From a virus: a DNA stretch of 36,765 nucleotides. Shown here one piece after another: positions 4,130 through 13,932 of the stretch. Under the pieces are notes generated by a model, which had not been told where the DNA came from, did not search any database, and was given only the letters and a program-made list of their open reading frames with translations. Where the stretch lies: positions 1 to 36,765 of the IMG/VR virus record IMGVR_UViG_3300003324_001329; one strand, written 5' to 3'. The position numbers and the translations under genes were made by a program. Each line of letters opens with the position of its first letter. The stretch's first letter is position 1.

Positions 4130-4132
4130 TTG

Positions 4133-5164
4133 ATGCACATCGCCCGCCGGTTGGACGTATTTGCCCGGCGTTTGCCCGGTGCCAAGCCAGGGAAATTCTG
4201 GCACGGTACCACCAGCAAGTTGCTGCGCTCGATTCAGGTCAACGGGCTTGATCCGAGCAAGATTAAATTCGGCATTTGGCAAACCGATGAAAGGGAGCCG
4301 ACCAGTTATTTTCAGCAGTCGTTTATATCCTTCGGCGGGATTTATTATGCCCGCAGCTTTCTTACCTCATTGAATTACGCCGATAATGCGGCGGAAAAAT
4401 TCGGCGGCAATCCACTGATGATCCTGGTGCAATTGCAGGAAATGTCCAGCGAGGCGGATGAAGATACCCTACCGCTGTGGCAGGTATTTCTTAAATACAA
4501 CGGCATTAAGCAGACGGAGAATAATAAACTGCGCGGTGTGCAGATGTACGAATTAATCCAGGCGGTCAATCCGCGCAATCAGGAAGATCGCGATTTCCTG
4601 CAATTCAGCATCAACGCCTACCGCTACGATTTGCTGGAAAAGGTGGATATCACCAAGGAGCAAATCCAGCAAAAGCCATATTATAATAAACTGATGGAAT
4701 TGATCGGCAAATATTATATCGCGGCCTGCTGGCGGGTGATCGCCCACTCGCGGGAATTATTGGATAAAGAGCCAACCGCACAAGGCTTGGAAGTTCCCTC
4801 GATTGCCGAGGCGGAAGCGAATTATCGGCAAGCGGCGGATCAAGTGCTGCGTTTGCTTGGCGATGAAATTCGCCGCAGTTTATTAGACAGCGACCGGACT
4901 GCTCCCGAACGCACCTTGCGCATGTTGCAGCCGGTCGGCTTCCGTGGGCGCAATAAAATCATCGGCATTTATGAATTGGTCGATTATAAAAAACTAGGAA
5001 TGCGGTTTCGGGGCCGCCGCGGCAATCGGCCACGGGTGATCGTGCATTATGGCGTGCCAGTGGAATTTACCCAGCAGCCGTTGGATTACGCTCCGTTGAC
5101 CGGCAATTATCTGACCAATTCGCCGTACCGCTGGATCAGCCGCGATGGCGAGGCGCTGAATTGA
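4133..5164 (+). CDS. Leader-bearing PARP-like (H-Y-E) ADP-ribosyltransferase
   Basis: I chose the ATG at 4133 over the adjacent TTG at 4130 because a GGAGG lies at the right distance. The protein has 343 residues and begins MHIARRLDVFARR. Residues 22-48 read KFWHGTTSKLLRSIQVNGLD and residues 68-84 read FGGIYYARSFLTSLNYAD. These closely follow the PARP-type signature of LWHGS...GL followed by G.GIYFA...S...NY. The putative triad is His24, Tyr71 or Tyr72, and Glu281 in IIGIYEL, with a long helical insertion between. A paralogue at 12784-13932 conserves all three blocks. The expected activity is mono-ADP-ribosylation of a host target from NAD+. The leader suggests delivery from the virion, as for T4 Alt. 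The KptA-like clade is an alternative within the same fold. Confidence 0.72.
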   Translation: MHIARRLDVFARRLPGAKPGKFWHGTTSKLLRSIQVNGLDPSKIKFGIWQTDEREPTSYFQQSFISFGGIYYARSFLTSLNYADNAAEKFGGNPLMILVQLQEMSSEADEDTLPLWQVFLKYNGIKQTENNKLRGVQMYELIQAVNPRNQEDRDFLQFSINAYRYDLLEKVDITKEQIQQKPYYNKLMELIGKYYIAACWRVIAHSRELLDKEPTAQGLEVPSIAEAEANYRQAADQVLRLLGDEIRRSLLDSDRTAPERTLRMLQPVGFRGRNKIIGIYELVDYKKLGMRFRGRRGNRPRVIVHYGVPVEFTQQPLDYAPLTGNYLTNSPYRWISRDGEALN

Positions 5165-5174
5165 AAGGCAACCG

Positions 5175-5693
5175 ATGACTATTCAGCGGCGCTTGGGATT
5201 ATTCATGGCTTCCATCCATGACCGTGAACACGCGGAAGCCATGCGCCAGACCGGATTTTGGGGCAAAGAGGCGGCCGGTTGTTTATTCATGGCCAAGGAC
5301 ACCAAAAGATTATTAATCGCCCATCGCAGTGACGATATACGAATTGTCGCTGAACCGGGCAGTTGGGGTACTTGGGGTGGGGCACTTGATCCCGGCGAGA
5401 CACCACAGACGGCCATCATTCGCGAAGTGCAGGAAGAATCCGGTTATAATAAGCCGTTGCAATTAATTCCGCTGTACGTATTCCAGGCCAAGCGCGACGG
5501 CCAAGTGGTTTTTCAATACCACAATTTTCTCGCCGTAGTGCCGAGCGAGTTTATTCCCACGCTGGATCGTGAAACCCAAGGCTACGCTTGGGTTAAATTC
5601 GGCGATTGGCCGCAGCCGTTGCATCCCGGCTTGCAGACCTTGCTGGCTGATGCGGCCAGCGTCCAGAAAATTCGCCACGCCATGCGCGACTAA
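5175..5693 (+). CDS. Leader-bearing Nudix hydrolase
   Basis: The protein has 172 residues. It begins with a leader variant, MTIQRRLGLFMAS. A textbook Nudix box (G-x5-E-x7-R-E-U-x-E-E-x-G-U) runs from Gly69 to Tyr91, with PGETPQTAIIREVQEESG at its core; Glu84, Glu87 and Glu88 are the expected metal ligands. Strands before it (AAGCLFMAKDTKRLLIAHRS) and after it (LQLIPLYVFQAK) complete the usual fold. Nudix enzymes hydrolyse nucleoside diphosphates linked to another group, such as NADH, ADP-ribose, NTPs or capped RNA; the substrate cannot be read from sequence. It stands beside an ADP-ribosyltransferase-like gene, so ADP-ribose or NAD chemistry is attractive but inferred. It is the last leader gene before the polysaccharide cassette. 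Confidence 0.85.
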   Translation: MTIQRRLGLFMASIHDREHAEAMRQTGFWGKEAAGCLFMAKDTKRLLIAHRSDDIRIVAEPGSWGTWGGALDPGETPQTAIIREVQEESGYNKPLQLIPLYVFQAKRDGQVVFQYHNFLAVVPSEFIPTLDRETQGYAWVKFGDWPQPLHPGLQTLLADAASVQKIRHAMRD

Positions 5694-5942
5694 TTTTTTC
5701 CTGGTCCGGGAATTTACCACCAGCGGTCGATGGTTAAATCGGCCGCGCCAAACAGATACGGCAACGAATCTGTTACCTCTCCCCTGCAATAGCCAATAAA
5801 CCGCCTGCTGCGGCTCTGACCGTTTATATCGGCGTGTACCAGCAAGATTGTTTGGTTACGCGCTCGCGATGAGAATGGTTGGAAACTGTGGTAAACTACT
5901 TGTGAGCTACCCACCTGCTCCATGACTTAGGAAAAACCCTGC
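5694..5942 (+). promoter_or_regulatory. Intergenic region before polysaccharide cassette; weak candidate extended -10
   Basis: This 249-bp gap is the longest on the + strand of the left half and separates the leader block from the leader-less cassette, so a promoter is expected here. The best candidate is TGTGGTAAACT (TGTGG then TAAACT at 5892-5897), an extended -10-like element without a convincing -35. The same 9-mer GGTAAACTA occurs in another intergenic stretch at 26495-26503. A minus-strand frame covers part of the gap (5714-5923) but shows no family features or credible ribosome-binding site. No terminator hairpin with a T-run was seen. Confidence 0.25.
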
Positions 5943-7244
5943 ATGAACAATGACGCCGAGAATATCTTGGCTGGCCTGGACGGCCGCCAAGATTTCCGAT
6001 ATTTTCCATTTCCTAGCGTGCCGGAAGATTTGAAAATATCAGGTTGGCGACCTACCGGGGAAATAACGCAGGCCGACGCGGTTATCGTCACGGAAGATAT
6101 TCGCGCTCAACAATCCAAGTTCGATAATTATCTGCCCAATCATCTGATCCCGGTGGTCAGTGTGTGCGGCGTCGGCGCCTACTGGTACGATGCCGTGCTG
6201 GATTATCGCACGGAAAATCGCGCCATGCTGGCTACTTTTTCCCTCATTGATGAAATCGTCTCGCGCATCGCACAACTGCATTCCAACATCCGCCACAGCA
6301 ACATTGCCGAGGATTTATTATTGGCGCGGCTGTTCACCCGCGAACGCACCTTAGCCGCCGAATATTTCCCGCAAGATAAACAGGTGATCCGTTATCCGCT
6401 GGCTGGGCGCTTGCACGAGCCATTGGTGCTGGCCAATAAACTGACCGAACAGGCGCAATTGACCCGCAATTTTTTCGATAAACTGCACGTCTGCACCAAT
6501 TGCCAGGGAATGCGGTTTAATATCCGCGAGGAATGCGTCACTTGCCGTTCGGCGGATATCGTCGAGGAACCGATTATCCACCATTTCAAGTGCAGCCATC
6601 AGGCGCGGCAAAGCGCCTTTCGTACTGTGGAAAAATTCCAGTGTCCGAAATGCGGCGAAGCCTTGCGCCACATCGGTCTCGATTACGATAAGCCGGGGAT
6701 TTTGATCGTCTGCAACAGTTGCCAGCACATGACCGATGCCTGCGCGGTCGGTTTCCGTTGCATGGATTGCGATGGAAAATTCGACAGCCAAACGGTGCCA
6801 ACCCGCACCTGGTACAATTATGAATTATCCGCCCGTGGCGTGCAAACCGTACTGCACGGGGCACCAACCTCGGAGCGGTATTTAATTCCGGAGAGTTTCC
6901 GCGCGCTGATCCGTCATAGTTTGCGCGAGGATGACACCTTCAAAACTCCGTTCACCGTGTTGCGCTTGCATTTTGCGCGGAAGAATTATCCCGACGCCTT
7001 GCTGTGGCATCGGTTGAAAAATTTGCTGGCCGATTGCATCCACTCCGGCTTGCGCCCGGTGGATGTGATGTGCGAGGCTGGCGATGAATTTTATCTGCTG
7101 TTGCCGCGCGCCAATACCCGCGAAGCCAATAAGCGCGTGCTGGATATTCAGCAACGCATGACCGAGGTATTGCAGCACGATCCGCAAATGCGTGCCGACG
7201 TGCTGGACCGCGCCGCCATCCTGCAATTAATCAATCAGGAATAA
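5943..7244 (+). CDS. TackOD1 zinc-ribbon protein with C-terminal AGDEF (degenerate GGDEF-like) domain
   Basis: The protein has 433 residues and no leader. Residues 180-280 hold a series of CxxC knuckles: C184/C187, C198/C201, C217, C234/C237, C257/C260 and C273/C276. The phrase CPKCGEALRHIGLDYDKPG is typical of the TackOD1 output domain. Residues 335-412 read as a GGDEF-like fold ending in CEAGDEFYLLLPRANTREAN (AGDEF at 379-383), in the place of the diguanylate cyclase signature. AGDEF variants are known to be active in some cyclases, but the rest of the domain is divergent, so it may only bind nucleotide. The next two genes are a glycosyltransferase and an HlyD-like protein, so this is probably the regulatory or sensor subunit of the synthase. 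It is cytosolic, with no membrane segment. Confidence 0.75.
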   Translation: MNNDAENILAGLDGRQDFRYFPFPSVPEDLKISGWRPTGEITQADAVIVTEDIRAQQSKFDNYLPNHLIPVVSVCGVGAYWYDAVLDYRTENRAMLATFSLIDEIVSRIAQLHSNIRHSNIAEDLLLARLFTRERTLAAEYFPQDKQVIRYPLAGRLHEPLVLANKLTEQAQLTRNFFDKLHVCTNCQGMRFNIREECVTCRSADIVEEPIIHHFKCSHQARQSAFRTVEKFQCPKCGEALRHIGLDYDKPGILIVCNSCQHMTDACAVGFRCMDCDGKFDSQTVPTRTWYNYELSARGVQTVLHGAPTSERYLIPESFRALIRHSLREDDTFKTPFTVLRLHFARKNYPDALLWHRLKNLLADCIHSGLRPVDVMCEAGDEFYLLLPRANTREANKRVLDIQQRMTEVLQHDPQMRADVLDRAAILQLINQE

Positions 7245-7250
7245 CCACCG

Positions 7251-8606
7251 ATGAAATACCTGATGCTGGCGCTGACTTCCTTCGTCGGGATGGTGGCGAT
7301 TTTCGTCATGCTGCGCGGCCTCGATCTCACCGAGTCCTTCACCTTATTATTCCAGATGGATATTCCCACCATCTTGTCGATGTTCTGGTATCTGGTGGCG
7401 TTTGAAATACCGCGCTATTCGATGGCGTTTGTCGCGGTGACGATTATCACCTTCAGCCGGCAATTGCGCAAAACCGAAATCGTTCCCGGCTACGCGCAAA
7501 ACCTGAAAATCAGTTGCGTGATTGCCGGGCACAATGAGGCGGAATCGCTGGAAAAATGCCTGCGCTCATTGGATGAACAAACCCGCCGGCCGGATGAAAT
7601 AATCGTCGTTGATGACGGCTCCACCGACGGGATGCGCGAAGTGCTGGCGCGATTAATTCGCGACGGCCGCATCACCCAGGGTTTTTGCAACCAAGTCCGC
7701 TGCGGCAAGGCGGCGGCGTGCAATCTCGGGATGAATGTCGCCACCGGCGATATAATAATCAATCTCGATGCCGATTGCAGCTACGATTACGATGCCATCG
7801 AATTATTGGTGCAACCGTTTGCCGATCCCAAGGTCGGCTCCACTTGTGGCAACATCGGAGTAAGGAACAGCCATGACACCTGTATTACCTCCTGGCAAGC
7901 GGTGGAATATCTGGTCTCGATATCCTTGGGTAAGCGGGTGCTGGATTTTCTCGATCTGGTAGTTTGTTCCTCCGGTGCCTTTGGCGCATTTAGAGCGGAA
8001 GCCATCCGGCAAGTGGGGATTAATGAACCCGGCCCCGGTGAGGATTTTGATATGACCATGCGGCTGCGCCGGTCGGGGTGGAAAATTCGCTTCGTCGGTG
8101 AGTCCTGGTGCATGACCGATGTGCCTAATTCGCCGCGGGGAATTATCAATCAGCGCCGGCGCTGGGATCGCGACACCATCCGCATCCGGATGCGCAAATT
8201 CAAGGATGTGTTTTATTTCTGGAAAAAGGAATGGAACACCAAAGAGACCTTGGAGCAGATTGATTTTATTATCTTCAACCTGATTGTCACCATGACGTTT
8301 CCGGTGTATTTGGCCTGGCTATTTTACACCTTCGGTGACGCGGCGTGGTTATTGTTGATCGCGGTGGCCTTGGTCTATATGTGCCTGGACGTAATGGCAT
8401 TTTTATTGGGCTTTATCGTCACCCGCCGGCGCACTCGCCCCAGCACATTATCGCTGGTGATGTTTGCCCTGACCTTCGGGTTATATAATGGCTACTTCAT
8501 GCGCGGGGTACGGATTTATGCCTACCTGGAAGAAATGTTATTCCTCCGCTCGTACCGCGATTCCTACGTGCCACAAAGGGTGCTGAAAATAGCTTCGATG
8601 TACTGA
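7251..8606 (+). CDS. Processive family-2 glycosyltransferase (polysaccharide synthase), membrane protein
   Basis: The protein has 451 residues. The N-terminus has two hydrophobic segments (about 3-22 and 42-68). The GT2 catalytic domain spans about 86-310 with all hallmark motifs: VVDDGS (119-124), DAD (173-175), GEDFD (263-267) and QRRRW (301-305, the QxxRW signature of processive synthases such as cellulose, hyaluronan and poly-GlcNAc synthases). Three further membrane segments lie at about 337-360, 364-390 and 397-415. It should polymerise a nucleotide sugar and extrude the chain across the inner membrane. The sugar cannot be assigned from sequence. It is 6 bp downstream of the TackOD1 gene and just upstream of an HlyD-like gene, as expected for a regulated synthase operon. 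There is no PilZ domain in the protein. Confidence 0.9.
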   Translation: MKYLMLALTSFVGMVAIFVMLRGLDLTESFTLLFQMDIPTILSMFWYLVAFEIPRYSMAFVAVTIITFSRQLRKTEIVPGYAQNLKISCVIAGHNEAESLEKCLRSLDEQTRRPDEIIVVDDGSTDGMREVLARLIRDGRITQGFCNQVRCGKAAACNLGMNVATGDIIINLDADCSYDYDAIELLVQPFADPKVGSTCGNIGVRNSHDTCITSWQAVEYLVSISLGKRVLDFLDLVVCSSGAFGAFRAEAIRQVGINEPGPGEDFDMTMRLRRSGWKIRFVGESWCMTDVPNSPRGIINQRRRWDRDTIRIRMRKFKDVFYFWKKEWNTKETLEQIDFIIFNLIVTMTFPVYLAWLFYTFGDAAWLLLIAVALVYMCLDVMAFLLGFIVTRRRTRPSTLSLVMFALTFGLYNGYFMRGVRIYAYLEEMLFLRSYRDSYVPQRVLKIASMY

Positions 8607-8639
8607 GGGAAACTCACCAACAGAAGGAAACCAGCCAAT

Positions 8640-9770
8640 ATGGCGATTAGACAAATCAAACACCGCACGCTGGCGGATAACTTCGCCAACGATGTGCGCG
8701 CTTCCAGACGCAAATGGGGCCGCTACATTTATATGTTGCTGGTGCTGGGGGTGGCGGTTTATCTCGGGCAATTATTTGCCGGGCCGTATATTTGGCTCGA
8801 TGCCGGCGGCTTGGTGGCGGCGGATCGCGTGGTAGTCAGTCCGGCCAACGAGGCGCAAGTGGTCGGCGTCTTGGTTAATGCCGGCGAGCGGGTGAAAAAA
8901 GGCCAATTGCTCGGCTACGTGCATTCCGCCATCACCACGCAAAATCTGGCCGATCTGCGCACCCGCTACGCCGATGCGGCGGCTAAGGTAGCGGCGTTGA
9001 ATATTCAATTGAATGTGGCCAATTCGGTGGAGCGATTGGCGCAAGATCGGCAGAAAATTGCGCGGGAAAATTACACCAAATTGGTCGCCAACCGTGGGTT
9101 TGCCACCGATTTAACCGTGCAAGCCTCGATGCAGCAACTTTATGATGCGGAATTGCAAGTCGCCACCTACCGCGCCCAGCGCGATGCCGCCAGCAAACAA
9201 TTGGCGATATTAAACGCCACATTATCCGACGCGCAGGAAGCGATTGATAGCATTCAGCAGCGATATTCCGAAGGCAAGATTTACGCCGATGACGATGGCA
9301 TTATTGGCGCGCAATTGGCGCAAAAGGGCGATGTATTAAAGCCCGGTGATTTATTCGTCGAGATGTACGTCGGCCAGCCGTACGTGCTGGGCTATCTGGA
9401 AACCAATACCCTGTACAAGATTAATCCCGGCGATCAGGTGAATATCAACAGCGGTTTTCGCGCCACGCTTGGCGTCGTGACCGAAGTGCGCCCGATTGCC
9501 GTGCAATTGCCGCCGGAATTTCAACGCACTTTCCGCCCGCGCGGTCGCGGACAAGTGGTTAAAATCGAGATGACCGAGGCGGATTTTCCCCTGTCAACCA
9601 AGGTGCAAATCAGTTCCGATAATTATCTGCCGCCGGAATGGCGGCAGCGGTTGGCAGAATATTGGCCGGGCTGGCAGCCGGTGCAACACCGGGTCACGGC
9701 TTGGTTGCAGCAGGCCGAAACGCAACTGACCACCTGGGTCGGTTGGGCACGGGCAAGGTTAAATGGCTAG
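8640..9770 (+). CDS. HlyD/Alg44-like membrane fusion protein
   Basis: The protein has 376 residues. A single N-terminal membrane anchor lies at about 29-46. A first half-lipoyl motif is at about 62-95 (RVVVSPANEAQVVGVLVNAG, then ERVKKGQLLG). A coiled-coil hairpin of alternating Ala/Gln/Leu heptads spans about 100-215. The second lipoyl half is at about 218-250 (DDDGIIGAQLAQKGDVLKPG), and a beta-barrel follows to about 330. This is the standard periplasmic adaptor architecture. Next to a processive GT2 it most likely bridges the synthase to an outer-membrane exit or guides the polymer through the periplasm, as Alg44 and related proteins do. No outer-membrane factor is encoded nearby, so a host partner would be needed. 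It has no capsid-type leader. Confidence 0.85.
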   Translation: MAIRQIKHRTLADNFANDVRASRRKWGRYIYMLLVLGVAVYLGQLFAGPYIWLDAGGLVAADRVVVSPANEAQVVGVLVNAGERVKKGQLLGYVHSAITTQNLADLRTRYADAAAKVAALNIQLNVANSVERLAQDRQKIARENYTKLVANRGFATDLTVQASMQQLYDAELQVATYRAQRDAASKQLAILNATLSDAQEAIDSIQQRYSEGKIYADDDGIIGAQLAQKGDVLKPGDLFVEMYVGQPYVLGYLETNTLYKINPGDQVNINSGFRATLGVVTEVRPIAVQLPPEFQRTFRPRGRGQVVKIEMTEADFPLSTKVQISSDNYLPPEWRQRLAEYWPGWQPVQHRVTAWLQQAETQLTTWVGWARARLNG

Positions 9771-9789
9771 GCAATGGAGGGTTTTTATT

Positions 9790-11094
9790 ATGGCCAGTGC
9801 AATTATTATCGTCAATGCGTTCGGCACCGCCGGCACGCAATTCAGTGTGGATGTGGATGGCTTGGTCCTCGGCTCCAAGGTATTGACGCCAACTCCGGCG
9901 GATTTTACCTTCGTTACTGACGTTGCCGATATCACGCAACCGCACCTTGTCACCACCACGGTTATCAGCCGTGGCGAGATGACATTAAGTAGCCTGACGA
10001 TTAATGGCAATCTGCAAACCAGCAGCGGGCCAATTAAACTGGTGGCGGCTAATTCCGTCACCGCCCCGGCCAGTGCTTTTGCCACCAAACCGCCGACCTT
10101 GCCGGCAGCATTTCCCGCCAAAGGCACCCGTGGCATGTGGGTGTGGACTACGGCGAATATATTAAATAACGCTACGGAATTTAATATTTTCGTCAATGAA
10201 GTGCTGCGCTCGGGCTGCACCTACGTCTACCTGTACCTGACCGCTGGACAAATCAACCAATACACCGCGCAACTGCGGCGGTTAATTCGCCTGTTGCATG
10301 ACAACGGTGTATTGGCTTATTCCATGGAAGGCTGGCGTGGGTATTTTTCCGACGCCTCCGGCCCGAATGGATTATATGCTGCGGTCAGCGGCACGGTCAG
10401 TTATAATGCCAAGGTGGTAGCGGAGGAAAGATTTGTCGGCTTCATGTCGGACATGGAGCCGCAGGATGGCCAGGGCGATGGGTTGAATTTATTCCACAAC
10501 GGGATCAGGCAATCGGCACTGTCCACAGCGCAATTGGCCGACCGCAATAGATTAATGGCCGACTGGCTGGCGATTTCCAAGCACATGAGCGATATTGCAC
10601 ATCAGGGTGGTATTCGCATGGCCGCAGCCATGCCATCCTGGACCGACAATTATTATGGCGAGCCGGTACTCGGTACCATGCCGGATGGCCGGCGCGATGA
10701 CGTTACGCATTTTTTCATGGAAATGCTCGATGATTATGCGGTGATGTCATATAATACCAACCCGAGCAATATCGCCAATCGGGTGCTGGGCAAACTACAG
10801 TACGCCAATAAACTGCCCAAGCCGCCACGGGTATTTGCCGGCATCGAAACCCACACTGGCGTCGGCTCCGGGATTTCCTACGGCGACACCGGCACGAAAA
10901 ATAACAAAACGGCGGTGGTGACGGATTTGAATACCTTGTTTGGTATTCTCGATGCCAATCCGACTTTCGCTGGGGTTAATATCCACGATTGGGAAGGCTG
11001 GCGCGATTTATCGCCCAAGGCGAGCAATTCCGCCCCGGCCCCGGTGCTACCGCAGCATTCCGGCAGTACGCCGGTGTGCGGCTGGTGGCCGTAA
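9790..11094 (+). CDS. Glycoside-hydrolase-like TIM-barrel protein with N-terminal carbohydrate-binding-like module
   Basis: I chose the ATG at 9790 because GGAGG sits 9 bp upstream; an in-frame ATG at 9763 overlaps the previous gene. The protein has 434 residues. Residues 1-75 are beta-rich (IIIVNAFGTAG, DVDVDGLVLG-like strands, PADFTFVTDV), resembling calcium-dependent carbohydrate-binding modules. From about 105 (GTRGMWVWTT) it reads as a TIM barrel with strands ending in YLYLTAG, YSMEGWRG, GFMSDMEPQ, GIRMAAAMPSW, YAVMSYNT, VFAGIETHTG and GVNIHDWEGW. Acidic residues in SDMEP and AGIET sit where barrel hydrolases place catalytic groups. There is no classical signal peptide. It probably trims or releases the polymer made by the neighbouring synthase. 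I cannot name the exact GH family. Confidence 0.65.
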   Translation: MASAIIIVNAFGTAGTQFSVDVDGLVLGSKVLTPTPADFTFVTDVADITQPHLVTTTVISRGEMTLSSLTINGNLQTSSGPIKLVAANSVTAPASAFATKPPTLPAAFPAKGTRGMWVWTTANILNNATEFNIFVNEVLRSGCTYVYLYLTAGQINQYTAQLRRLIRLLHDNGVLAYSMEGWRGYFSDASGPNGLYAAVSGTVSYNAKVVAEERFVGFMSDMEPQDGQGDGLNLFHNGIRQSALSTAQLADRNRLMADWLAISKHMSDIAHQGGIRMAAAMPSWTDNYYGEPVLGTMPDGRRDDVTHFFMEMLDDYAVMSYNTNPSNIANRVLGKLQYANKLPKPPRVFAGIETHTGVGSGISYGDTGTKNNKTAVVTDLNTLFGILDANPTFAGVNIHDWEGWRDLSPKASNSAPAPVLPQHSGSTPVCGWWP

Positions 11095-11128
11095 AAAATA
11101 AACGACTGCTGACTTAGGAGCGATAAAA

Positions 11129-11980
11129 ATGCGTGTGTTAATAACCGGCGCCGAAGGTTACATCGGCCGGGTGGTGATGGCTACCCTGCGCGAGAGGTTT
11201 AATAGCAATCTGCGGCTGGAGACCGCAGATTTGCGTCGCGGGCAGGATATCGGGAGTATTTCCCAACAATATTATGATTGTCTGGTGCATCTGGCTGCCT
11301 TCGTGCGGGTGGGCGAGGGCGAGGAATTACCCACCCGCTATTACAATAATAATTGCACCAAATATATCAAGCTGTTGCAGCAAAACCAATTCCGCCGGAT
11401 CATTTATATTTCCTCGGCCGCGATCTACGGCAAAAACTCCATCTGTCCGCCCAACGTCTACGGCTCTACCAAACTGGACGGGGAGTTTATTACCGCCCGC
11501 GCACGGGTGCCGAATTTAATTCTCCGCCTGGGCAACCCCATCGGCATGATGGACTATCATCAGCCGATTATCCGCGAGATGATGACTTCGCCGTACGCTT
11601 CGGTGGCGATGAAACTGGCGGAAGCGGCGATCAGTAATAAAACCTTCCACATCCACCGCAACCCGCGTATGACCAGGGATTTTTTCTATGTCGCGCATCT
11701 GGCGGAATTTATCAGTGAGGCGATTTTTTCCTGCCAAACCGGCACCTTTGACGTTGGCTCCGGCCAACCGGTGCCGGTCAACGACCTGTTGGAAAAATGT
11801 TGTACCCGGCTGGGAATTAACTATGACTACATCGAGCCGCCGGCGGGTTACACTGACAACAACTACCGCAACGCCGAATTGTTGGTCCGCCGGGCACCGA
11901 ATGGCTACGATGATTTTTGCGAAGTGTTCAACGACTACATCGTAAACTGCCAAGCGGTATTGACCAGTAGCGCGAAATAA
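11129..11980 (+). CDS. NAD(P)-dependent sugar epimerase/dehydratase (extended SDR)
   Basis: The protein has 283 residues. The N-terminal Rossmann motif ITGAEGYIG (GxxGxxG, residues 7-13) binds NAD. HLAAFV (54-59) matches the HLAA block, IIYISSAAIYG (91-101) carries the catalytic Ser/Thr strand, and YGSTK (Tyr111, Lys115) is the YxxxK catalytic pair of extended short-chain dehydrogenases such as UDP-glucose 4-epimerase. NLILRLGNPIG and FDVGSGQPVPVNDLL complete the family pattern. It is shorter than the usual 310-340 residues but looks intact. It should supply a nucleotide sugar for the synthase at 7251-8606 and closes the polysaccharide cassette. Lys/Arg details do not let me assign the sugar. 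Confidence 0.85.
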   Translation: MRVLITGAEGYIGRVVMATLRERFNSNLRLETADLRRGQDIGSISQQYYDCLVHLAAFVRVGEGEELPTRYYNNNCTKYIKLLQQNQFRRIIYISSAAIYGKNSICPPNVYGSTKLDGEFITARARVPNLILRLGNPIGMMDYHQPIIREMMTSPYASVAMKLAEAAISNKTFHIHRNPRMTRDFFYVAHLAEFISEAIFSCQTGTFDVGSGQPVPVNDLLEKCCTRLGINYDYIEPPAGYTDNNYRNAELLVRRAPNGYDDFCEVFNDYIVNCQAVLTSSAK

Positions 11981-12019
11981 CCTACCACGCAGTTCGCACA
12001 AAACAGTGAGGAAAAACCG

Positions 12020-12232
12020 ATGGACACCAATCGCGAAACCATCCCGCAGGCGATCTACGTCTACGCTGGCGAGCAATTAAATCAAATCCTGTTCACCGCT
12101 TGCACGCTGGATGCTGCGAAGGAAAGTCTGCAAGCCACGGTGGATAAATGGGAAAGCCAAGACCAGGAAATTCACCACGGCATTCGCAACGGCAAGCCGG
12201 TCTATCGCATCCGCTGCGTCGATCTGGCTTAA
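12020..12232 (+). CDS. Small hypothetical protein
   Basis: The protein has 70 residues, with an ATG preceded by GTGAGGAAA. It looks like a compact alpha/beta protein: IYVYAGEQL, then a helix DAAKESLQATVDKWES, then a strand pair KPVYRIRCVD. It has two cysteines and no zinc pattern. It lacks the shared leader and lies between the epimerase and the hairpin at 12250-12288, so it marks the right boundary of the leader-less cassette. I do not recognise a family. Confidence 0.6.
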   Translation: MDTNRETIPQAIYVYAGEQLNQILFTACTLDAAKESLQATVDKWESQDQEIHHGIRNGKPVYRIRCVDLA

Positions 12233-12301: not shown

Positions 12302-12787
12302 ATGCCAATTGTCCGCCGCCTCGCCATATTTGCCTACGATGACGAGGAAGATGACGCAGAGAAAGAAAAATACGCGCATCTGCCGGATTCCTCCCATATC
12401 GAACAATTAAAACCGCAACTCGCCAAGGTCGGGCAAAAGGTGTACGATGCCTGGGTAGTGAACGAGGATGGCTATGATACCAGAGCCGGTTATGGTGGCG
12501 TGTGCAATTTAATTGCTCATAAAATGGTTGACTTGTTGCGCAGCCATAAAATTCCCTGCTCTCTGGTTTCCGCCTGGGACGAAATACATACCTCGGTGGT
12601 AGCGCAATGCCGCGATGGTATATTTTCGGTAGATATTCCTTGGCGTCTGTACGAGCGTGTCGATGGTTACGATTGGATTAAGCTGCCGAACATTAAATTC
12701 ACTCCAAATTTTGTCACCATTCATAAAATCGACAGCGATCCGGCGCGAATGGCCCGCTACGTCGAGGAATGGGAGGACGACCGATGA
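12302..12787 (+). CDS. Leader-bearing papain/transglutaminase-like protein (C-H-D triad)
   Basis: The protein has 161 residues. It begins with the leader MPIVRRLAIFAY, followed by an acidic linker (DDEEDDAEKEK). Then YGGVCNLIAHKMVDLLRSH places Cys68 at the start of a helix, IHTSVVAQ gives His96 at the start of a strand, and IFSVDIPW gives Asp111 one strand later. This Cys, His, Asp order and spacing matches the minimal transglutaminase or papain-like core. It could cleave or cross-link host protein, or deamidate Gln. I cannot assign a named family. The gene ends in an ATGA overlap with the PARP-like gene, so the two are translationally coupled. The first ATG has no strong ribosome-binding site. 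Confidence 0.6.
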   Translation: MPIVRRLAIFAYDDEEDDAEKEKYAHLPDSSHIEQLKPQLAKVGQKVYDAWVVNEDGYDTRAGYGGVCNLIAHKMVDLLRSHKIPCSLVSAWDEIHTSVVAQCRDGIFSVDIPWRLYERVDGYDWIKLPNIKFTPNFVTIHKIDSDPARMARYVEEWEDDR

Positions 12788-13932
12788 CAATTATCCGCCG
12801 CTTGGAGGTTTTTGCTCGGCCACGGGTAGCGCCGGGAATTTTCTGGCACGGCACTTCGAGCAAATTCCTCCGCTCGATCATGCTGCATGGTCTCAATCCC
12901 AGCAAGATTAAAGAAGGCAATTGGCTGGTCGATCCCAACGTCAATCAGATTAATCCATCGAAAGTTTCCTACGGCGGAATTTATTACGCGAAATCCGCCT
13001 ACACCGCGCACACCTACGCCTCGCAAATCTGCCAGAAAGATAAATCCGGCGCCTCGCATCCATTATTAATCGCGGTGCAACTGGCCGAACAAAGCGCCTT
13101 GCCGGATGAAGATCGCACCGATTTTAATCCATTGGTGCTGGAAATGCTCGGGCGCAGCGAAATCACGGCAGCGGAAGTTTTGGTGCGGATTTTATTACGC
13201 ACCGAACGGCGCTGGTACGGCGGGCAATATTCCTGGCGTGATACCGTGCAGCAGTTCCGGGATTTAATCTTCAAGCGGCTGCAAATCACCCCAGCCGATA
13301 TCACCAAGCGCAAGGATAGTGCGAAATTCCTTGGCGCGATTGACGCGCTATTGTTGGCCGGAGCGCGGCGTTATCTGGCGCACGTCCAAGCCACTCGCAA
13401 ATCCTACGAGAACGGCTATTATTATATCAAGCGGGCGTTGCGCGATTGGGCACCGAAATTGGAACAAAAATGGGCGTACGAAACCCCGGATGGCTACCGC
13501 GACGTGCGGTTGCCGGTTAAATTTCGCCTGCCATCACCCCAGCAAGCCGAGCAGGATTTCATTAGATCGGCCGATCATCTGAACAAAATGGTAAAGAATT
13601 ACGTCCGTCGCAAGCAACTCGGCGACGACGGTTTCTGGCGTGATAATCGCACGCTCCGGATATTGGATAAGGTCGGTTTTCGCGGCCGCAATAAGATTAT
13701 CTGCATCATGGAGTGGCCGGATGAAAACGGCTGGCACAATAAAGACCGCAAAGGCTACACCTTAATCCGCGTGCATTACGGCAAAGTGCCAGCGGAATTT
13801 CTACCGGTATGGCGCGATAGATGGAGCGAAACCATGCCGGTGATTTTTGAGGATAAAAACGGCAAGCGATTGTCGGTGGACGATCCGAAGGGCCGGCTGG
13901 ATTATACCGTGGTTGGCCGATTAACTGTGTAG
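12784..13932 (+). CDS. Leader-bearing PARP-like (H-Y-E) ADP-ribosyltransferase, paralogue of 4133-5164
   Basis: I chose the ATG at 12784 because it overlaps the upstream stop (ATGA) with GGGAGG just upstream, and because it starts the leader MTIIRRLEVFARP. The protein has 382 residues. It shares with the 4133 protein the blocks FWHGTSSKFLRSI..HGLNPSK (His22), YGGIYYAKSAYTAHTYAS (Tyr67/68) and VGFRGRNKIICIME (Glu310), plus the following (V/L)(I/R)VHYG..PAEF-like strands. The H, Y and E positions fit the PARP-type triad. The central helical insert (about 110-290) is longer and diverged, which suggests different targets for the two copies. The predicted role is NAD+-dependent modification of host proteins or nucleic acid after injection. 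Confidence 0.72.
   Translation: MTIIRRLEVFARPRVAPGIFWHGTSSKFLRSIMLHGLNPSKIKEGNWLVDPNVNQINPSKVSYGGIYYAKSAYTAHTYASQICQKDKSGASHPLLIAVQLAEQSALPDEDRTDFNPLVLEMLGRSEITAAEVLVRILLRTERRWYGGQYSWRDTVQQFRDLIFKRLQITPADITKRKDSAKFLGAIDALLLAGARRYLAHVQATRKSYENGYYYIKRALRDWAPKLEQKWAYETPDGYRDVRLPVKFRLPSPQQAEQDFIRSADHLNKMVKNYVRRKQLGDDGFWRDNRTLRILDKVGFRGRNKIICIMEWPDENGWHNKDRKGYTLIRVHYGKVPAEFLPVWRDRWSETMPVIFEDKNGKRLSVDDPKGRLDYTVVGRLTV

Follow-up and report, generated by a model that had tools for sequence, protein, structure and literature searches.

A putative captured exopolysaccharide operon and a phage-type epimerase on a large T4-like phage

In the present study, we analysed five adjacent genes at positions 5943-11980 of a window of 36,765 nucleotides, which is the start (positions 1-36,765) of the 97,738-bp virus record IMGVR_UViG_3300003324_001329. 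As judged from the sequence, this module is an intact, long-resident operon of bacterial type carried by a phage. Its first four genes appear to have been captured long ago from a Bosea/Stappia-like bacterium, and the fifth appears to be an epimerase of phage lineage. We consider it probable (about 0.6) that the captured exopolysaccharide operon and the phage epimerase together make a polymer which coats the infected cell and alters adsorption, clumping or adhesion. An earlier note on this DNA had described five genes in one direction with short spacers. The five open reading frames (ORFs) lie on one strand with short spacers or overlaps, as follows:

5943..7244, + strand: gene 1, TackOD1 protein (Pfam PF18551, E 5e-47; invariant Cys columns; AlphaFold2 model; Foldseek)
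7251..8606, + strand: gene 2, membrane processive polysaccharide synthase of glycosyltransferase family 2 (GT2) (domain matches; four motifs; orthologues)
8640..9770, + strand: gene 3, HlyD-type periplasmic adaptor (NCBIfam HlyD, 4e-9; orthologues; transmembrane segment)
9763..11094, likely start ATG 9790, + strand: gene 4, TIM-barrel protein (Stappia homologues; AlphaFold2 model; Foldseek; comparison with carbohydrate-binding modules)
11129..11980, + strand: gene 5, NAD-dependent nucleotide-sugar epimerase, GalE-like (Pfam Epimerase, 4e-14; Rhizobium phage matches)

Gene 2 (451 aa) carries DDGS at 121, DAD at 173, GED at 263 and QRRRW at 301, and all four motifs are intact, as the earlier note had claimed for its GT2 synthase. 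Processive GT2 enzymes were defined by the motifs DDG, DxD, (T/G)ED and Q(Q/R)xRW together with transmembrane segments before and after the GT domain; hydropathy places such segments around the GT domain of gene 2, which belongs to this class on both counts. The closest named models were PgaC/IcaA, NodC and the XrtG-associated synthases, all of which scored below their cut-offs, and membership of PgaC/IcaA (TIGR03937) was rejected at 138.5 bits against an equivalog cut-off of 422.3 bits. The identity of gene 2 to its Bosea and Stappia orthologues was 52-56%. Among phage protein families it matched phrog_841 over residues 86-190 only, which is the nucleotide-binding part of GT2.

Gene 1 matched Pfam TackOD1 (PF18551) with 160.4 bits, far above the curated cut-off of 32 bits, and the Cys and His columns of the CxxC/HxxC zinc pattern were invariant across 29 aligned proteins, the phage one included. 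Its AlphaFold2 model (predicted local distance difference test score 89) has an alpha/beta N-terminus, which we infer to be a receiver-like remnant, a zinc-ribbon TackOD1 middle and a C-terminal GGDEF fold; full response-regulator forms of this protein occur in Roseibium and Palleronia. With Foldseek, the C-terminus matched GGDEF domains at 9e-5, with PelD among the matches. The earlier note had called the product a TackOD1/AGDEF regulator. The first half of this name was borne out, and the AGDEF string proved to lie one residue out of register when aligned with Stappia (D-TVARH-DNGVL against D-VMCEA-GDEFY in the phage). The metal-site aspartates of the first strand are also missing; cyclase activity of gene 1 is therefore not expected, and the reading of AGDEF as an active diguanylate cyclase (GGDEF) was rejected, though the fold itself is GGDEF-like. 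The RxxD motif is the cyclic di-GMP inhibitory site of PelD-type degenerate-GGDEF receptors. It is present as RPVD in the phage and as RPVD or REVD in Stappia and Bosea, and only about 19 of 80 family members have it. The function of the TackOD1 domain has been called obscure (PMC5847659), and we presume that gene 1 is a regulator or partner of the synthase.

Gene 3 has a single N-terminal transmembrane segment (residues 30-48) and shares about 39-43% identity with its Stappia and Bosea orthologues. Of the earlier label "HlyD/Alg44-like", the HlyD part stands by the NCBIfam match. Membership of the alginate Alg8/Alg44 system was rejected, as PilZ is expected on that adaptor and gene 3 has neither PilZ nor another Pfam family.

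The bacterial origin of these three core genes was traced with the GT2 alignment, which was used to scan the genomes of about 85,000 species of bacteria and archaea. The scan gave 79 loci, nearly all alphaproteobacterial, and about 75 of them had TackOD1-GT2-HlyD in order. In Bosea, Stappia, Phyllobacterium, Brucella and others, this operon has the same three genes in the same order and strand as the phage; the phage version differs by the added epimerase, the CBM60-like N-terminus of gene 4 and a GC content brought down to the phage value. On plasmids of Phyllobacterium, Aminobacter, Methylocystis, Roseibium and Palleronia, homologues of genes 1 and 2 are adjacent and are followed by a homologue of gene 3, annotated as HlyD-type or hypothetical. 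The best genome loci were those of Bosea and Stappia (TackOD1 identity to the phage 33-36%), and in Stappia the order of genes 1-4 (TackOD1-GT2-HlyD-TIM barrel) was matched. In the trees of the three core genes, the phage grouped with five Bosea and three Stappia sequences with support of 100, 0.985 and 0.98, the branching order inside this clade being without resolution. Since the same clade was recovered in three separate trees, the operon appears to have been captured as a unit.

The operon is patchy in bacteria. Of 87 genomes in the Stappia family, eight have TackOD1, and in an unbiased sample it was present in 9 of 385 alphaproteobacterial genomes; five of these nine genes adjoin this GT2, and two adjoin a gene distantly homologous to gene 4 (hhalign 97%, E 6e-11). 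In two alphaproteobacterial genomes, a TIM-barrel protein with a signal peptide, distantly related to gene 4, precedes the TackOD1 gene. One of these loci has a PIG-L-like deacetylase after TackOD1 and is another uncharacterised TackOD1 sugar locus. On plasmids of Aeromonas caviae and Photobacterium, the gene for a TackOD1-GGDEF protein adjoins that for a distant GT2, and thus the TackOD1-GT2 pairing reaches Gammaproteobacteria.

The record carries a tail sheath, a tape-measure protein, a clamp loader, a UvsX-like recombinase, an SbcC-like nuclease subunit and a ribonucleotide reductase. By these hallmark genes it is a real phage, and it is a large T4-like myovirus. The closest relatives of its tail sheath are in Rhizobium phages (37%), with no close relative found in IMG/VR, and its topoisomerase is akin to those of large phages of Rhizobium, Pseudomonas and Xanthomonas; the host is probably an alphaproteobacterium. 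No tRNA genes were found across the record. The module has a GC content of 0.53-0.56, and its codon usage and GC at third codon positions (GC3) are typical of phage genes, as against about 0.62 and a GC3 of about 0.77 in the bacterial donor copies. A recent transfer or a chimera would look bacterial. An assembly chimera with bacterial DNA, which the earlier note had named as an outcome that would overturn its reading, is thus disfavoured, and we rejected it on codon usage. Furthermore, 13 ORFs bear the leader MxIxRRLxxFA, all within 877-21885, to either side of the module, and nowhere else in the 97.7-kb record, and the five module genes lack it, in agreement with the earlier note.

Among 50,697 phage genomes, TackOD1, HlyD and the TIM barrel (gene 4) had no match, and GT2 had partial matches only. 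Scans of viral contigs with the single proteins of genes 1 and 2 gave no match; alignment-based scans of viral contigs gave matches to the GT2 nucleotide-binding domain only, with no TackOD1 or TIM barrel. In IMG/VR, pattern-based scans, with the limits of that approach, returned nothing for gene 1 or gene 4. By these comparisons, the module seems to occur in no other phage of the collections searched.

Gene 5 shows the motifs GAEGYIG and YGSTK besides its Pfam match, which upholds the sugar epimerase of the earlier note. Its best matches are in Rhizobium phages (35-39%), one of them adjoining gyrase genes, and it is by these relatives taken to be a phage-lineage epimerase. The five genes are therefore not one transferred block. 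Since the core operon and gene 4 are of bacterial type and gene 5 of phage type, the module is best described as a four-gene operon taken from bacteria, to which a phage gene was added. The idea of an inserted cassette accordingly holds for the captured synthesis and export genes 1-4 and not for the whole. The suggested search for the five-gene order recovered genes 1-4 in Stappia, and a bacterial donor with all five in one block was not found; a Rhodobacteraceae plasmid has the order TackOD1-GT2-HlyD-GalE.

Gene 4 gave no family match in domain and profile searches. Its AlphaFold2 model, built on three sequences and unreliable at the N-terminus, has an eight-stranded beta/alpha barrel at residues 122-408, and the top Foldseek matches were GH1, GH113 and GH5. 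Two glutamates, E232 on strand beta4 and E362 on strand beta7, are invariant in the phage and Stappia and are kept in a Paenibacillus relative. By fold and by this 4/7 layout, the protein is a putative glycosidase of clan GH-A type. The earlier note had proposed a TIM-barrel hydrolase with a lectin-like domain; the barrel is supported by the model, and the lectin-like part rather resembles CBM60. The N-terminus scored 13.8 bits against an Azospirillum CBM60 profile, above all 2000 shuffles (8.1 bits), and gave no match to Pfam CBM60 (PF16841); the Stappia homologues begin instead with a signal peptide. The best start is ATG 9790, with GGAGGG about 8 nt upstream, and this start leaves gene 4 without a classical signal peptide. 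Sec-dependent secretion is therefore doubtful. Homologues stand directly after HlyD in Stappia indica and S. taiwanensis (40% identity). Within the Stappia family, two of 87 genomes had the gene, and of 398 genomes sampled from the order only one did (S. indica itself).

The steps of synthesis, passage and control can be proposed from the protein families. The GT2 would polymerise a nucleotide sugar supplied by the host and move the chain over the inner membrane, the epimerase may provide or convert the sugar for it, and the HlyD-type adaptor would guide the chain via the periplasm to an outer-membrane channel of the host. The TackOD1 protein would switch or scaffold the synthase. The coat on the infected cell might then alter phage adsorption, clumping or adhesion, and gene 4, probably lacking a signal peptide, may remain cytoplasmic and cut the polymer once freed at lysis. 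A polymer on infected cells is the most likely role; expression, the polymer, the coating, its benefit (superinfection exclusion or adhesion) and the part of gene 4 are what we infer. Our confidence is strong for gene identity, donor clade and residence in the phage, and weak as to which polymer is made, whether the genes are expressed, what the phage gains and what gene 4 does.

Several observations weigh against this proposal. The record, which is linear, probably represents only part of a genome, and we found no close relative, whether carrying or lacking the module, so that its fixation in a lineage of phages can only be presumed. The module holds no gene for an outer-membrane exporter or channel, so that the earlier label of a complete-looking synthesis and export module was too strong. 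Distant homologues of gene 4 that adjoin other TackOD1 genes lack one or both putative catalytic glutamates, which makes hydrolysis uncertain. Finally, in the chloroviruses of algae, hyaluronan had no measurable plaque phenotype (PMC5408694).

It is possible, if on the doubtful side, that the polymer serves adhesion or biofilm rather than exclusion of rivals, so that infected cells clump or stick and progeny stay near new hosts. The bacterial operon is in the biofilm-type synthase class, with a GT2 and an HlyD adaptor like bgsBA (PMC9495663), and clumping is among the proposed uses of chlorovirus hyaluronan (PMC5408694), but a fast lytic cycle leaves little time for a biofilm gain. A coat-then-cut cycle seems rather unlikely to us. 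Here an early polymer under TackOD1 control would encase the cell, blocking rivals or holding the cell, and a matching hydrolase that binds carbohydrate, building up inside the cell without a signal peptide and released at lysis, would free the progeny; if this were true, TackOD1, a domain of unknown function, would prove to be a regulator of polysaccharide synthases.

That the module is a passenger, either captured host DNA without present function or an assembly chimera, fits a single record whose core genes are bacterial in origin. We consider this improbable, as the GC content, GC3 and codon usage fit the phage and not the donors, every motif is intact although the genes have diverged deeply from their bacterial counterparts, there are no internal stops, and leader-bearing phage genes flank both sides. 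Many T4-like phages encode sugar enzymes, and the epimerase comes from a phage family seen beside gyrase genes; both points favour glycans made for decoration of the virion or DNA, with no exported polymer. A GT2 with transmembrane segments, co-inherited with an HlyD adaptor, has no obvious part to play in decoration within the cytoplasm, however, and we hold this explanation to be very improbable. Overall, a polymer coat on the infected cell remains our preferred reading.

The edges of the module were marked only by a short exact repeat, whose two copies are its sole + strand occurrences in the whole record:

5929..5938, + strand: 10-bp AGGAAAAACC, ribosome-binding-site-like, at the left edge
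12009..12018, + strand: second copy of AGGAAAAACC, at the right edge, preceding a 70-aa ORF at 12020

This repeat may be a ribosome-binding site, which it resembles, or a capture scar. No convincing long direct repeats marking an insertion were found at the edges, and the promoter and terminator scans did no better than chance. In the surrounding block, the leader resembles a packaging or injection signal. Two of the leader-bearing ORFs, at 4130-5164 and 12769-13932, look like PARP/ADP-ribosyltransferase-like paralogues, with a weak PARP-like Pfam match for 12769-13932 only and not for 4130-5164, and another, at 5175-5693, is a NUDIX protein. This neighbourhood, with its weakly PARP-like protein, fits host takeover. 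Outside the window, at 69686-72310 of the record, we observed a protein of 874 aa in which a GH5 endoglucanase domain, an esterase domain and two copies of a repeat accompany an apparent signal peptide. It matched CelE2 (1e-21) and E1 endocellulase (7e-21) in the PDB over the GH5 part, and an esterase domain at 2e-14; its closest plasmid matches are Azospirillum GH5/CBM60 proteins. The phage thus has a second polysaccharide-active enzyme besides the module.

Phages are known to alter the surface sugars of their hosts, for example in gtr serotype conversion. O-antigen conversion (gtrAB) and other phage GT2 enzymes resemble the module in that a phage-borne GT2 alters the host surface. In contrast, GtrB is not a polymer synthase and has no adaptor, and only the nucleotide-binding part of GT2 matches gene 2. 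The nearest characterised layout, though not a family match, is bgsBA, the mixed-linkage beta-glucan system of Sinorhizobium meliloti and Rhizobium etli, which is likewise a two-gene operon of a GT2 and an HlyD-type partner (PMC9495663, PMC5567048). BgsA has 669 aa with a C-terminal tail that binds cyclic di-GMP, whereas the phage GT2 of 451 aa has no such tail; the order there is HlyD then GT2 without TackOD1, in place of TackOD1-GT2-HlyD. Membership of BgsA/BgsB was rejected (identity of 24%, confined to the GT domain, and no tail). The arabinose-polysaccharide region of pSymB gave weak matches only.

The nearest functional precedent is the hyaluronan and chitin synthases of the chloroviruses (PBCV-1 A098R and CVK2 CHS), which coat infected algae and inhibit the attachment of other viruses to the coated cells (PMC5408694). 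As in the module, a processive GT2 encoded by a virus occurs together with accessory genes for sugars; the coating is known there, and here it is proposed from the genes. The chloroviruses are eukaryotic viruses with no adaptor or TackOD1 regulator described, and represent a separate capture (PMC5408694). The finding also points to the patchy TackOD1-GT2-HlyD operon of Alphaproteobacteria, an exopolysaccharide operon that is apparently uncharacterised, and the conserved pairing with GT2 synthases gives the TackOD1 domain a concrete role to test. The new element is that a phage carries a whole synthase, adaptor and regulator, much as algal viruses carry hyaluronan and chitin synthases, and the reason for which a virus would coat the cell it infects becomes testable in genetically tractable bacteria.

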